Origin: Cytophagaceae bacterium
Lineage (GTDB): Bacteria; Bacteroidota; Bacteroidia; Cytophagales; Spirosomataceae
DNA length: 33,876 nucleotides
Assembly (NCBI GenBank): GCA_017984215.1
Contig: JAGOAA010000021.1
Location: 1-33,876, forward strand
Direction: 5' to 3'
This document shows positions 1,704 through 6,064 of the stretch, piece after piece. Position 1 is the stretch's first letter. Every line of letters begins with the position of its first letter. The notes beneath the pieces were generated by a model, which saw only the letters and a list, made by a program, of their open reading frames with translations, did not search any database and was not told the DNA's origin. A program made the translations under genes and the position numbers.

Positions 1704-1841
1704 ATGCAAGGCGTTAAAAAACAACATTTACCCTCCAAAATCTGCCCCGTTTGCAATCGCCCTTTTGCCTGGCGCAAGAAGTGGGAGAAGAATTGGGACC
1801 AAATTATCTATTGTGGTGAAAAGTGCAGACGTAGCAAATAA
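1704..1841 (+). CDS. DUF2256 small zinc-ribbon-like protein
   Basis: This is a 45-residue protein with the complete DUF2256 signature: LPSKICPVCNRPF, then WRKKWEKNW, then YCGEKCRR. Four cysteines (C14, C17, C37, C41) form two CxxC/CxxxC knuckles expected to bind one zinc. The molecular role is unknown, but genes of this family are often found beside photolyase/cryptochrome genes, as here. ATG 1704 gives the normal family N-terminus. The 3' end overlaps the next ORF. The gene begins directly after a hairpin with a run of T, an arrangement that would leave it almost no leader unless transcription reads through. Confidence 0.9.
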   Translation: MQGVKKQHLPSKICPVCNRPFAWRKKWEKNWDQIIYCGEKCRRSK

Positions 1842-2109
1842 GTTTACCGACGAGGACATTGACCGGATCATCCAAATGGCCTGGGAAGATCGCACGCCTT
1901 TTGAGGCGATCGAATTTCAGTTTGGCCTAAAGGAAAAGGAGGTCATCGAATTCATGCGTTTAAATAGTAAGGAGTCTAGCTTCCGTATGTGGCGTAAACG
2001 AATGAGTGGCCGCGGTACCAAACACCTACAAAAACGCGTGGCTGTGGACCCTCGATTTAAATGCACCTTGCAGCGCAGCATCAGCATGAATAAAATCAGT
2101 AAGCGCTAA
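1816..2109 (+). CDS. TIGR03643 family (DUF2805) protein
   Basis: This is a small basic protein of about 97 residues. The conserved blocks are DRIIQMAWEDRTPFEAIEFQ, FGLKEKEVIEFMR, SFRMWRKRMSGRGTKH and a C-terminal SISMNKISKR, which match TIGR03643. The domain starts just after the DUF2256 stop. I place the start at GTG 1816, giving MKSADVANKFTDEDIDR and a 26-bp overlap with DUF2256; a TTG at 1765 would add residues not typical of the family. The stop overlaps the next start (TAATG). The helical, basic character suggests a DNA-binding or adaptor role, but no function is established to my knowledge. The family repeatedly occurs with DUF2256 and cryptochrome genes. Confidence 0.88.
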   Translation: MKSADVANKFTDEDIDRIIQMAWEDRTPFEAIEFQFGLKEKEVIEFMRLNSKESSFRMWRKRMSGRGTKHLQKRVAVDPRFKCTLQRSISMNKISKR

Positions 2110-3185
2110 TGAAGTTTTCGACAAAACTCGAAGAAGTACATGCGCAAATCGACCGATTTGACGTAGCGAAATATGCACGTTCACGTAATTTTATCACGGG
2201 TGGCGTTTCTTATTTATCCCCCTATTTATCCCGCGGTTTTATCACCGTGCCTCAAGTCGTTGAGCGATTGAAAAACCGTGGAATTGGTTTGGAACAAGCG
2301 GAAAAATTCATCCAAGAATTAGCCTGGCGCGAGTTTTATACGCGCACGTGGCTTCAAAAAGGCGATGCTATTTTTGAAGATATTCGCCATCCGCAGGCGG
2401 GAATTGAGCGATTTGGAATTCCCAAAGCGGTGCTCGAATCTACTACTGGAATTCAAGCTTTAGATGGGGCTTTAAAGAACTTCCCAGAAACAGGTTACCT
2501 ACACAATCACCTGCGGATGTACCTCGCCGGAACGATTTGTAATGTGGCCAAATACCATTGGTTTGAACCCGCCCAATGGATGTATTATCATTTGTTGGAT
2601 GGTGATTTGGCGAGTAATGCGCTGAGTTGGCAATGGTGCGCCGGGACCTTCAGCAATAAGCTGTATTACGCGAACCAAGAAAATATCAATCGCTATACGG
2701 GGAGCCAACAAAGAGGAACATATTTAGATTTCGAATACGAGGATTTGCCCTCGCAAGCGGTCCCCCAACATCTACAAAGCTCGGTCGAAGCATCGCTTCC
2801 ATTTACCCCGCCTACAACGAAGCCGCTCGAATTAATTGATGGAATTCCCACCTTCATCTACACCCATTATACGCTCGATCCTACCTTTCACGAGGGCGAG
2901 GCAGGTAACCGGATTTTGATCTTGGAACCGAGTCATTTTGCGAAGCACCCGATGGCGCCCAAAACGATCGATTTCATTCTTTCACTCGCTGAAAACATAC
3001 CAGGATTGCAGGTGTATTATGGAGAATATGCGTCACTTCCTGTCAAAGGAATTTTCCGGGATCATCCCATCAATGCCCATTTTCAAGGCGTACGAGAGGT
3101 GCACCCTTCGCTTGCTCCGGGTTTACAAGGGGAATTCAATAGCTTCTTTTCTTTTTGGAATAAACTAAGCAAACAGTTGCGCTAG
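2109..3185 (+). CDS. FAD-binding photolyase/cryptochrome-domain protein lacking N-terminal antenna domain
   Basis: This 358-residue protein starts directly in the FAD-binding helical domain of photolyases. The N-terminal alpha/beta antenna domain found in ordinary photolyases is missing. Visible motifs are GGVSYLSPYLSRGFIT (31-46), LAWREFYTRTW, the ETGYLHNHLRMYLAG block, and LLDGDLASNALSWQWCAG, where D164, D166, N170 and W174/W176 keep the flavin-contact and Trp positions of class I photolyases. After about residue 210 comes a different segment. From R268 (RILILEPSHF) it looks like an alternating strand/helix region. The ATG overlaps the upstream TIGR03643 stop. The 3' end overlaps the convergent gene by 21 bp. 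A light-responsive flavoprotein or repair enzyme is likely; its substrate cannot be read from sequence. Confidence 0.85.
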   Translation: MKFSTKLEEVHAQIDRFDVAKYARSRNFITGGVSYLSPYLSRGFITVPQVVERLKNRGIGLEQAEKFIQELAWREFYTRTWLQKGDAIFEDIRHPQAGIERFGIPKAVLESTTGIQALDGALKNFPETGYLHNHLRMYLAGTICNVAKYHWFEPAQWMYYHLLDGDLASNALSWQWCAGTFSNKLYYANQENINRYTGSQQRGTYLDFEYEDLPSQAVPQHLQSSVEASLPFTPPTTKPLELIDGIPTFIYTHYTLDPTFHEGEAGNRILILEPSHFAKHPMAPKTIDFILSLAENIPGLQVYYGEYASLPVKGIFRDHPINAHFQGVREVHPSLAPGLQGEFNSFFSFWNKLSKQLR

Positions 3186-4604
3186 AAAGTTTTCAGCGTT
3201 GTTTAAATGCGTTTCCTTTTTTTCCAAAGGCATTTTATCCCAAGTGCTAATCAGCATCGCCCATCTCGGATTTTTGCGGAAGGTCTCACGTTGTTTATCC
3301 AAGAATCGCCAAAACAAACCATCCCAAATTTCCTGCCATTCTCCCTTCGGATAATCGCTCATTTTCAGGATGTAATTGGACCCACAGATATAAGGTTTGG
3401 TCGTCATCAAACCGCCATCGCTGAATTGCGACATGCCGTATACGTTGGGCACCATCACCCAGTCATAAGCATCGATGTACATTTCCATGAACCAGCGATA
3501 GACCGCATCGGGCTTGATTTCGCATAATAACATAAAATTTCCCAGCACCATCAGTCGTTCGATGTGGTGGTTATAGCCCGTTTTTAACAGCTTGCGGATT
3601 GTTTGGTCGATGGGTTCCACCCCTGTTGTTCCGGTGTAAAAGGCCGCCGGCATCTCCTGCGTAAATCCCCAATAATTCGTGGTACGCTGTTGGACCCCGA
3701 TTTTCCGATACAATAATTGGACAAACTCGCGCCAACCTACCACCTGTCGGATGAACCCCTCCATACTATTTAGCGGTGCTTTCGAATTCGCGACACGTTC
3801 GATGACTTGTGTGGGAGTCAACAAGCCCACATTAATTAGCGGACTTAAAATACTGTGGAATAAGGACTTTTCTTGTGCCTTAATCGCATCCTCATAATCG
3901 CCAAAAAGCGGAATCCGCTCGCGAATAAATTGGTCCAATGCTGCCTTTGCTTCCGCATGCGTCACCGGATAATAGGCTCCGGAAAAAGGCATGTCGCTCG
4001 AACCTGGATTGCCTGGGAAATGTTCCGATACATACACAGTGGCCTCGCGAATATATTCGTTGGGAAGTACCTCAGGAAACGGAGCCGGGATGAATGTATT
4101 TTTCGGTATTTTCTTGCGATTTTCGGAGTCAAATGTCCATTGGCCACCCATCGGTTTTCCATCTTCCTCGATTAGAATTCCACGGTCTTTTCGCTGCTGG
4201 GTGTAGAAGGCCGTTTGAAAATAAGGCTTACGCGTACCGAGCAGCGATATATCTGTGTTGAGGAAGTTGGGGCTTGCTAATAAGTGAATGTCGCCTGCTC
4301 TGCGTAGGCGTCGCTCCAACAAATAATCATTCGGATCGAACATCCTTATCGCGCCTTCGATGGAAGAAACCAGTGCGACTTCTGAAGCGCGCGGATCTTG
4401 CGCATCGATGTATTCCACTCTTTTCCCCGCCGCACTAAGTCGGTCCGCAAAGGCCTGCATACTCGCTCGGTGGAAGAGTATTTTCTGCTTGTGAAAAGCG
4501 TATTGTTTGAAGAATAAATCCGATTCGACAAGGTAAAAAACCTCAGCTTCTTGCGTGAGCGTTTCTTCAAACAATTGATGTGGAAAGATCAGGAATGCGC
4601 TCAT
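3165..4604 (-). CDS. Photolyase-related protein (FeS-BCP/DPRP type) without cluster cysteines
   Basis: This 479-residue protein begins with the DPRP N-terminal pattern [11 protein letters not shown] and has the family core [19 protein letters not shown] and [16 protein letters not shown]. FeS-BCP relatives are (6-4) photolyases or cryptochromes that bind FAD and a [4Fe-4S] cluster through four Cys. Here one cluster-type Cys is plausible ([13 protein letters not shown]), but the expected SDYCxxC cysteines are P419 and E422 (SDYPKGEW), and the later ACP Cys is replaced in the [10 protein letters not shown] stretch. A cluster is therefore unlikely. C407 in YICG is not an obvious substitute. The start overlaps the upstream photolyase-like gene's stop by 4 bp (ATGA), indicating one operon. 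Function is probably flavin-based DNA repair or light sensing. Confidence 0.85.
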
Positions 4605-6064
4605 TTATTCACGTGTTTTTCGAGGATTCGCGCCACCTCTTGTCGGGCCTTTTTCGTTTTCCGCAACCCCCAAACTTGGTCGGAAGCCGTTTTTCTTGTC
4701 GCACCTAAATCCACCACGGGAACAGGGTAATCCACGCCTATTTTAATTCCATATAAAGTCTGTTCCATGTCACTTAGTTTCCAAGGTTCATGAATCAATG
4801 TTGAAGGAACCGCAGCTAATTCCGGCACCCATTTTTTGATGAAGACCCCGTCCGGATCATGGGTGTAAGAATTCTTAATCGGGTTATAAATGCGGATGGT
4901 GTTGATGCCAGTCACACCTGCTTGCATTTGGATTTGCGGGTAGTGAATACCGGGTTCGTAATCGAGAAATTGGCGTGCTAGAAAATGTGCCAAATCCCGC
5001 CAATCTTGCCAGAGATTAAAGACAAAAAACGAAACAACCATGGCGCGCATGCGGAAATTCAAGTATCCCGTCGCGACAACGCAGCGCATGCAGGCATCGA
5101 TGAGTGGAACGCCGGTTTGGCCGGTTTGCCACGCCTGAATCAAGAACTCATCGCGTGGTTTTTCAAGCGCCTGATAGGCTTTATTCACGGGCTCAAACTC
5201 CATCCTGGACTCATCCTCAAACTTCTGCATGAAATGCCCTTGCCAGTGCAGTCGGGACGTGAAATTGGCGAGGGCACGTTTGTTCGAAGCGCTTTTGTAA
5301 TGCTGCATGGTGTAGGTATAGGCCATGCGCATGGATATATTTCCGTAGGCTAAATAGGGGGAGATGCGGCTGCATGCCCGCCGACTAGCCTCTGGTTTGC
5401 TGATGTAAAAGCTATAATTTTTATGACGCGTTTCGATGAAACTTTTCATGTATTTCCAACCCCAATATTCGCCACCTTCTTGGAAAATTGGATTGCGTGT
5501 TTTGAATTCAAGAGGTAGTTCGGGCCCTTTCCAGATCTCATAAAATTCAGGCGATAATTGCAATAAATTCCAATTGTCCTCACGCACAAAAAAGGGTTCG
5601 TGTTTCATCGTTTCTTCCCAGCGTTGTTGCCACGTTTTGCGGGATTTTAATTTACGAATGACGCCACCTGTCCGAGTTTCCCTCCAGGCAATTTTTTCGC
5701 GTGCGCAAAATGCGGATACCGCTTTGTCCCGTTGAAAACTCAAATCATTCCCAATCTCCTGGTGGGAGAAAATTTGGCGTATGTCAAATTGTTCTGCCAA
5801 AGCCTGAAACACGGGGAGTACTTCATGATGGAAAATATATAGAGTCCCGTTTCGGTCTTCTAAGCGACCCTGCATTTCCATCAAGGATTCATGCACAAAT
5901 CGCCAATGCCGTAGGTCGCTGTCGGGGAATGCAATCATCGATGGCTCAAAAAAATACACCAATAACACCGGAATATTTTCCTCCAAAGCCCGGTACAAAG
6001 GCTCGTGGTCCGTAAAGCGTAGATCACGTTTAAACCAGACGATATTGATAGGCGATTTGGACAT
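4601..6064 (-). CDS. Cryptochrome/photolyase family protein
   Basis: This 487-residue protein has full photolyase architecture. The N-terminal alpha/beta antenna domain starts [18 protein letters not shown] and runs to about residue 135. The FAD domain includes [15 protein letters not shown] (about 230-244), [31 protein letters not shown] and [11 protein letters not shown]. The usual DGDLAxN-WQW loop is replaced by [17 protein letters not shown], with D368 retained. By alignment, the flavin-proximal Asn is His and both Trp of WQW are non-aromatic. This points to a divergent cryptochrome-like clade whose photoreduction route differs from E. coli PhrB. It is the first gene of the minus-strand pair. 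A plus-strand promoter for the next gene lies just upstream. Confidence 0.88.

Follow-up and report, generated by a model that had tools for sequence, protein, structure and literature searches.

The window, a stretch of 33,876 nucleotides of Cytophagaceae bacterium (GenBank assembly GCA_017984215.1, contig JAGOAA010000021.1, positions 1 to 33,876 of the forward strand), carries at 1704–6064 an island of five open reading frames (ORFs), and this island is probably a photoreactivation module consisting of a photolyase for cyclobutane pyrimidine dimers (CPD) in single-stranded DNA (ssDNA), a (6-4) photolyase, a third photolyase-like flavoprotein, and two small accessory proteins. The flavoproteins are named FADO (the 358-aa flavoprotein), DPRP (the (6-4)-photolyase-like protein), and PHL (the photolyase-like protein). 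Gene content, gene overlaps, domain order, co-occurrence, and the exchange of FADO for CRY-DASH were observed, and from these we infer the enzymatic activities and an action of the small proteins on the enzymes or on DNA. Photolyases have mostly been studied as stand-alone enzymes, and what is new is the linking of two unstudied small families, DUF2256 and DUF2805, to them. No such link for either family was found in the open-licence literature, where one of the two is listed, in a passage of PMC11796252, among the frequent Pfam domains in bacterial proteins of up to 50 aa.

Gene content, co-occurrence, and exchange

The five genes belong to the families that an earlier note on this DNA had recognised, and profile searches matched them to PF10013, PF10985/TIGR03643, PF03441, PF04244 plus PF03441, and PF00875 plus PF03441. 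The plus-strand trio of DUF2256, DUF2805, and FADO converges on the minus-strand pair of DPRP and PHL:

DUF2256: 1704–1841, plus strand, 45 aa, small four-cysteine protein of TRASH-clan zinc-finger type (PF10013, E 9.9e-22)
DUF2805/TIGR03643: 1813–2109, plus strand, small basic protein, predicted helical, start uncertain (GTG at 1813 or 1816; PF10985, 8.4e-33)
FADO: 2109–3185, plus strand, 358 aa, probable short photolyase of inverted topology (PF03441 at residues 67–188)
DPRP: 3165–4604, minus strand, prokaryotic (6-4)-photolyase type without the four iron-sulfur (Fe-S) cysteines (PF04244, 3.6e-43, and PF03441)
PHL: 4601–6064, minus strand, photolyase-like, DASH-related but outside CRY-DASH (PF00875 and PF03441)

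The DUF2805 stop and the FADO start share TAATG (2107–2111), the PHL stop overlaps the DPRP start (4601–4604), and DUF2805 apparently starts, at either of its two GTG codons, within the 3′ end of DUF2256. FADO and DPRP overlap tail to tail by 21 nt at their 3′ ends (3165–3185), and this overlap is kept in the convergent loci of the same genus among L162–L179 (−14 or −46). The three flavoproteins account for all PF03441 matches in the source genome, which is 86.6% complete, and Rfam and tRNA scans of the window gave no match.

For co-occurrence, 148 Bacteroidota genomes were drawn, and within-family tests were performed on the 115 with a listed family label. DUF2805 was present in 43 of the 148, DUF2256 in 50 (two weak matches, one below the cut-off in G069 and one partial in G138, being kept in the counts), DPRP in 49, and PF03441 in 93. 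DUF2256 and DPRP were found together in 46 genomes, DUF2256 only in 4, DPRP only in 3, and neither in 95 (Fisher 8e-30), and their presence agreed within families (Cochran–Mantel–Haenszel p 5e-8). DUF2805 was accompanied by DUF2256 in 38 genomes, with 5 and 12 apart (stratified p 3e-5), and by DPRP in 37, with 6 and 12 apart (stratified p 1e-5). DUF2256 lay within 5 kb of some listed PF03441 gene in at least 32 of the 46 genomes having it with DPRP (weak PF03441 matches being unlisted), and DUF2805 lay within 5 kb of DUF2256 in 14 of the 38 genomes having both; the genes are thus frequently retained without standing together.

Among the 49 DPRP genomes, FADO was found in 14 and CRY-DASH in 30, with both in 1 and neither in 6 (Fisher 1.2e-6, uncorrected for descent). 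The 30 CRY-DASH proteins exceed the TIGR02765 cut-off, whereas for the remaining FADO genomes the absence of CRY-DASH is read from the profile-match list, and in G155, G059, and G047 a proxy alone gave the CRY-DASH call; with a narrower list of 15 CRY-DASH genomes, without the longer forms, the exclusion was not significant (p 0.075), and the list was extended from profile starts to take these forms in. One further genome, G060, was dropped from the FADO set, reducing it from 15 to 14, after its protein scored 240 with PHL and 72 with FADO. All 14 FADO genomes carried DPRP and DUF2256, and 12 carried DUF2805; where DPRP came with FADO or CRY-DASH, DUF2256 was present every time (43 of 43), and where it came with neither, in 3 of 6.

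For named FADO loci, the 80 that scored best among 564 confirmed candidates were used; because the ranking followed similarity to the window, they are an uneven sample. DUF2805 stood directly upstream of FADO in 58 of these 80, DPRP within 3.5 kb in 58, and DUF2256 was found in 49. The distance from the DUF2805 stop to the FADO Tyr22 codon, 62 nt in the window (the spacing at which the DUF2805 stop and FADO start overlap), had a median of 62 nt and fell between 50 and 99 nt in 76 of 81 same-strand pairs. The source organism is a freshwater bacterium near Aquirufa, and a named relative, Aquirufa antheringensis, has 92% identity in FADO.

Within the genus of the source genome, DUF2805 was present in 30 of 37 genomes and DUF2256 in 30 of 38. 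The seven genomes without DUF2805 also lacked DUF2256, and most of these seven are incomplete; one of them, G024, is 99% complete, and the only PF03441 match it keeps is of class I type. A further full-range PF03441 match (profile 1-154 to 1-156), of class I type by likeness, occurred in 32 of 38 genus genomes. Of 18 loci read from the 30 genomes with DUF2805, 15 had DUF2256-DUF2805-FADO together, 13 had a convergent DPRP after FADO, and 6 showed all five genes in the strict arrangement. In G036 (L159), of the same genus, DUF2805, CRY-DASH (TIGR02765 479.6 bits), an Fe-S-type DPRP, and DUF2256 were found instead, and G019 (L152, at a contig end) resembles it, with DUF2256 on another contig and CRY-DASH typed by likeness; set against the window, these two genomes are a module exchange within one genus.

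The earlier note had proposed that the five genes form one joint system, and the within-family agreement of DUF2256 with DPRP and the coupling of DUF2805 to FADO, recurrent throughout Bacteroidota, speak for this and against a chance neighbourhood. Contiguity of all five fared less well, the strict set being confined to genus level. Since the genes are elsewhere rearranged or split, the scattering that the note had named as telling against its proposal was found in part, with pieces of the set recurring as a module.

The three flavoproteins

In FADO, PF03441 is the one Pfam domain match, and phmmer alignments to photolyases cover about residues 18–187; Foldseek aligned FADO to 1qnf with a probability of 1.00 over 205 columns (TMq 0.46). 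Residues of about 245–358 form a second conserved α/β domain, seen in an alignment of 19 sequences and in a model with pLDDT 93 (elements at 248–330), and since the photolyase matches cover the FAD part, they leave this C-terminal domain unmatched. The domain order is inverted, with the FAD domain N-terminal, the second domain C-terminal, and no N-terminal antenna domain. FADO had been described as a FAD-only protein, a label that the alignment and the confident model of the second domain rule out. None of the residues singled out with that label (D164, D166, N170, and W174-Q175-W176) varies among the 19 sequences, which share one nearly invariant cysteine (C144) and lack the four-cysteine Fe-S set of the Phr4/Phr6 type. 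Both CRY-DASH and NewPHL are described as ssDNA CPD photolyases (in excerpts of PMC9649867 and PMC13274461), and since FADO takes the CRY-DASH slot, it would be expected to do the same job; the most likely identity of FADO is an ssDNA CPD photolyase of the inverted short kind resembling NewPHL or short photolyase-like (SPL) proteins.

By phmmer, most of the DPRP sequence aligned to 8ijy, 7ykn, 3zxs, and 4dja, which places the protein in the PhrB/CryB class, and the combination of PF04244, a FAD domain, and homology to PhrB-type structures marks it as of the prokaryotic (6-4) photolyase type. Loss of most of its Fe-S cysteines had been noted before; the cysteine columns confirmed the loss and extended it, all four being gone and the loop shortened relative to 8ijy, 7ykn, and 3zxs, so that the protein falls outside FeS-BCP. 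Among the 49 DPRP genomes, 32 had all four cysteines and 17 had none. Fe-S-less DPRP was accompanied by FADO in 12 of 17 genomes and Fe-S DPRP in 2 of 32, an association of which common descent may explain part; counts from loci that had been fetched by way of FADO were left aside as biased. At two other loci, L136 and L137, an Fe-S-less DPRP has a different photolyase-like gene after it, in L136 a class II gene (TIGR00591 643.8 bits), and the lists for these genomes show neither FADO nor CRY-DASH. The window DPRP is most likely a (6-4) photolyase in Fe-S-less form. A division of labour among the flavoproteins, as the earlier note had suggested, is thus retained as an inference from homology and exchange: with FADO in the CRY-DASH slot and DPRP in the (6-4) class, it likely runs between CPD in ssDNA for FADO and (6-4) lesions for DPRP.

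PHL scored 152.4 bits with TIGR02765, below the cut-off of 317.05, and is therefore outside CRY-DASH. Class I photolyases carry a FAD-site motif of the DGD..N...WQW type. In PHL this is replaced by D[YF]E..IH....QMQ[AS]G, with the Asn and both Trp absent, as had been observed earlier. The PHL-type motif was present in 56 of 95 aligned photolyase-like sequences (one of the 56 from Salinivibrio, L246), QMQSG occurred in one more, and the rest were of CRY-DASH or class I types. Because the losses are common to the relatives of PHL, they are traits of its clade, and with the loss of all four Fe-S cysteines recurring in 17 of the 49 DPRP genomes, the idea that residue losses are special to this island was given up. 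Judged from its sequence, PHL is a third flavoprotein, belonging to a conserved DASH-related family.

The small proteins and their possible roles

DUF2256 scored 77.3 bits with PF10013 (cut-off 25), and Cys14, 17, 37, and 41 were conserved at 90% or more in a 29-sequence alignment. A role as a simple Fe-S factor for DPRP was considered and rejected: since DUF2256 is kept with Fe-S-less DPRP (16 of 17 genomes) as it is with Fe-S DPRP (30 of 32), it is not simply such a factor. At L122 and L128, short photolyase-like fragments adjoin an intact DUF2256 gene, which suggests that the photolyase genes decayed while DUF2256 persisted. Upstream of DUF2256 in the window, at 1669–1703, lies a hairpin resembling a terminator (AAAAGGGTTTG...CAAGCCCTTTTTT), with a T tract leading directly into the DUF2256 ATG; this arrangement is also present in several genus loci (e.g. 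L146, L148, L153, L156, L157, L163), is missing from others, and could be the terminator of the upstream gene or an attenuator.

DUF2805 (about 90 aa, basic) scored 111.9 bits with TIGR03643 (cut-off 66.55), and its predicted structure is mostly helices (pLDDT 79). A DUF2805_zf-NADH-PPase_NUDIX architecture is listed in a portion of PMC6856373, and nudC (NAD+ diphosphatase) adjoins DUF2805, DUF2256, and DPRP on the Acinetobacter plasmid pYH12138-1 (L242). PHROGs gave no match for four DUF2805 proteins.

Outside Bacteroidota, plasmids were surveyed through the records listed, 60 out of 91 for DPRP and a share of the 132 for DUF2256. Among the matches listed, 20 plasmid records had both genes, and in 14 of these DUF2256 and DPRP lay no more than 500 bp apart; this held for 7 of 11 name groups, all of them genera of Pseudomonadota (Rhizobium, Ensifer, Novosphingobium, Sphingomonas, Variovorax, Aeromonas, and Acinetobacter). 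DUF2805 faces DUF2256 and DPRP on an Acinetobacter plasmid, DUF2256 faces an SDR gene, DPRP, and a CRY-DASH gene on a Vibrio parahaemolyticus plasmid, and in Salinivibrio DUF2256 overlaps a PHL-family gene, with DPRP far off. Of 14 control genomes, Caulobacter and Synechococcus elongatus had both DUF2256 and DPRP, Haloferax had DPRP, and none had DUF2805. Since DUF2256 and DUF2805 recur with photolyases in other bacteria, they are good candidates for unrecognised ultraviolet (UV)-repair helpers, and as an accessory protein of a conserved repair module DUF2256 is upheld as a strong and DUF2805 as a weaker candidate.

In the proposed scheme, FADO would stand in for CRY-DASH and repair CPD in single-stranded DNA, DPRP would repair (6-4) lesions in its Fe-S-less form, and PHL would act as the third flavoprotein. 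DUF2256 and DUF2805 would be produced in step with the enzymes through the overlapping genes, and would perhaps help them reach or hold damaged or exposed DNA.

Several observations weigh against this scheme. DUF2256 and DPRP lay within 5 kb of each other in 21 of the 46 genomes having both, 6 of the 43 DUF2805 genomes had no DPRP, and DUF2805 was present alike in FADO genomes (12 of 14) and other DPRP genomes (25 of 35, p 0.47). No photolyase was found within 6 kb of DUF2256 on one plasmid each of Hirschia, Azospirillum, Thioclava, and Pantoea, nor within 6 kb of DUF2805 on one plasmid each of Nostoc, Vibrio europaeus, and Pseudoalteromonas. Viral contigs with DUF2805 (79, L277–L355, environmental and partly redundant) had neither a photolyase nor DUF2256 in their flanks (up to 6 kb) in 78 cases; DUF2805 is not photolyase-specific. 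Foldseek with the DUF2805 model gave no match at E ≤ 0.001, no fusions were present among the ORFs scanned, and a metagenome-correlation study places DUF2805 near translation domains (excerpt of PMC3597751). For the enzymes, the C-terminal domain of FADO was left unaligned by hhalign to its alphaproteobacterial and Deinococcus relatives, and a passage of PMC9426592 suggests CPD, and not (6-4) lesions, as the possible target of Fe-S-less Phr2 forms, by which the (6-4) assignment of DPRP would be weakened.

On 24 of the 79 viral contigs (25 pairs), DUF2805 and a gene for a flavodoxin-fold NAD(P)H/FMN reductase stood within 500 bp of each other on one strand, often overlapping.

A different role for the small proteins would be regulation, with DUF2805 a DNA binder resembling helix-turn-helix (HTH) proteins and DUF2256 a zinc-finger factor of a UV or light stress regulon including the photolyases. 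This reading is doubtful. It draws on the small, basic, mostly helical model of DUF2805, on its weak, non-significant HTH-like Foldseek matches (GcrA, TrpR, and FFRP), and on its position beside unrelated genes, such as the reductases of the viral contigs. Against it, DUF2805 abuts the FADO start at the recurrent spacing given above, for which joint production of partners is the more usual reading, and promoter- and terminator-like sites in the island were below shuffled counts (promoter scan 4, mean 6.9; no operator site was sought).

A combination of repair with light sensing, PHL being a cryptochrome-like photoreceptor that signals through the small proteins, is quite improbable. PHL and its relatives do lack the FAD-near Asn and both WQW Trp, and a possible counterpart of PHL, the product of a phr1-like gene in V. 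cholerae, is given as a cryptochrome in part of PMC9426592; a PHL-type match (by profile ranges) was found, though, in just 3 of the 14 FADO genomes (G000, G099, G202), and since DUF2256 was present in 14 of 14, the small proteins are independent of PHL. Slighter still is the chance that the island gathers unrelated sunlight-resistance genes, co-selected and co-transferred without physical or functional link, for which the spread of the genes over several places in many genomes and their presence on plasmids speak, and against which stand the within-family concordance of DUF2256 and DPRP, the exchange of FADO for CRY-DASH, the window-like spacing of DUF2805 and FADO, and the recurrence of DUF2256-DPRP adjacency in Pseudomonadota.

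The photoreactivation module has a more far-reaching version, which we consider unlikely, in which DUF2256 and DUF2805 would be the first dedicated photolyase accessory subunits, one zinc-finger and one basic helical, delivering a FADO-type enzyme or CRY-DASH together with the (6-4) photolyase to damage as a multi-protein complex, with DUF2805 borrowed by phages for other flavoenzymes. If the module is real, DUF2256 and DUF2805 would acquire their first specific role, one that is simple to test, and in Bacteroidota nature would have run an exchange experiment, with CRY-DASH and an inverted short photolyase alternating in one operon slot.

Comparison with known systems

DUF329 is YacG, a gyrase inhibitor. 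DUF2256 is placed alongside DUF329 in the TRASH clan (in a section of PMC4047054), and the likeness of the two is one of clan placement. For PHL, CRY-DASH gave the best NCBIfam score (TIGR02765) and the best solved structures (1np7 and 6kii), and true CRY-DASH occupies the same operons elsewhere; PHL differs from it by the score below the cut-off and by the FAD-site motif. DPRP is alike to prokaryotic (6-4) photolyases (FeS-BCP: PhrB, CryB, SePhrB) over most of its length, and differs in the four missing cysteines and the shortened loop, features also reported for the Fe-S-less group, e.g. PromaPL (excerpt of PMC9178010).

An inverted domain order is stated for Phr6 and Phr7 in part of PMC9426592, and FADO has the same FAD-first order as the inverted photolyases Phr4/Phr5 and Phr6 of marine Synechococcus/Cyanobium treated there; these have four Fe-S cysteines, whereas FADO has one nearly invariant cysteine, the comparison being made by description and not by sequence. 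The inverted order is likewise stated for NewPHL/SPL in a passage of PMC13274461, and FADO shares their arrangement of an N-terminal FAD domain and a C-terminal second domain. Using hhalign, FADO was compared with four presumed NewPHL-type plasmid proteins (from Ruegeria, Peteryoungia, Asticcacaulis, and Deinococcus), and the FAD domain alone was aligned, its homology being clear (probability 100). NewPHL and SPL proteins are reportedly the subject of Emmerich 2020 and Xu 2021, and it is this kind of protein that FADO resembles in architecture while standing in the place of CRY-DASH.

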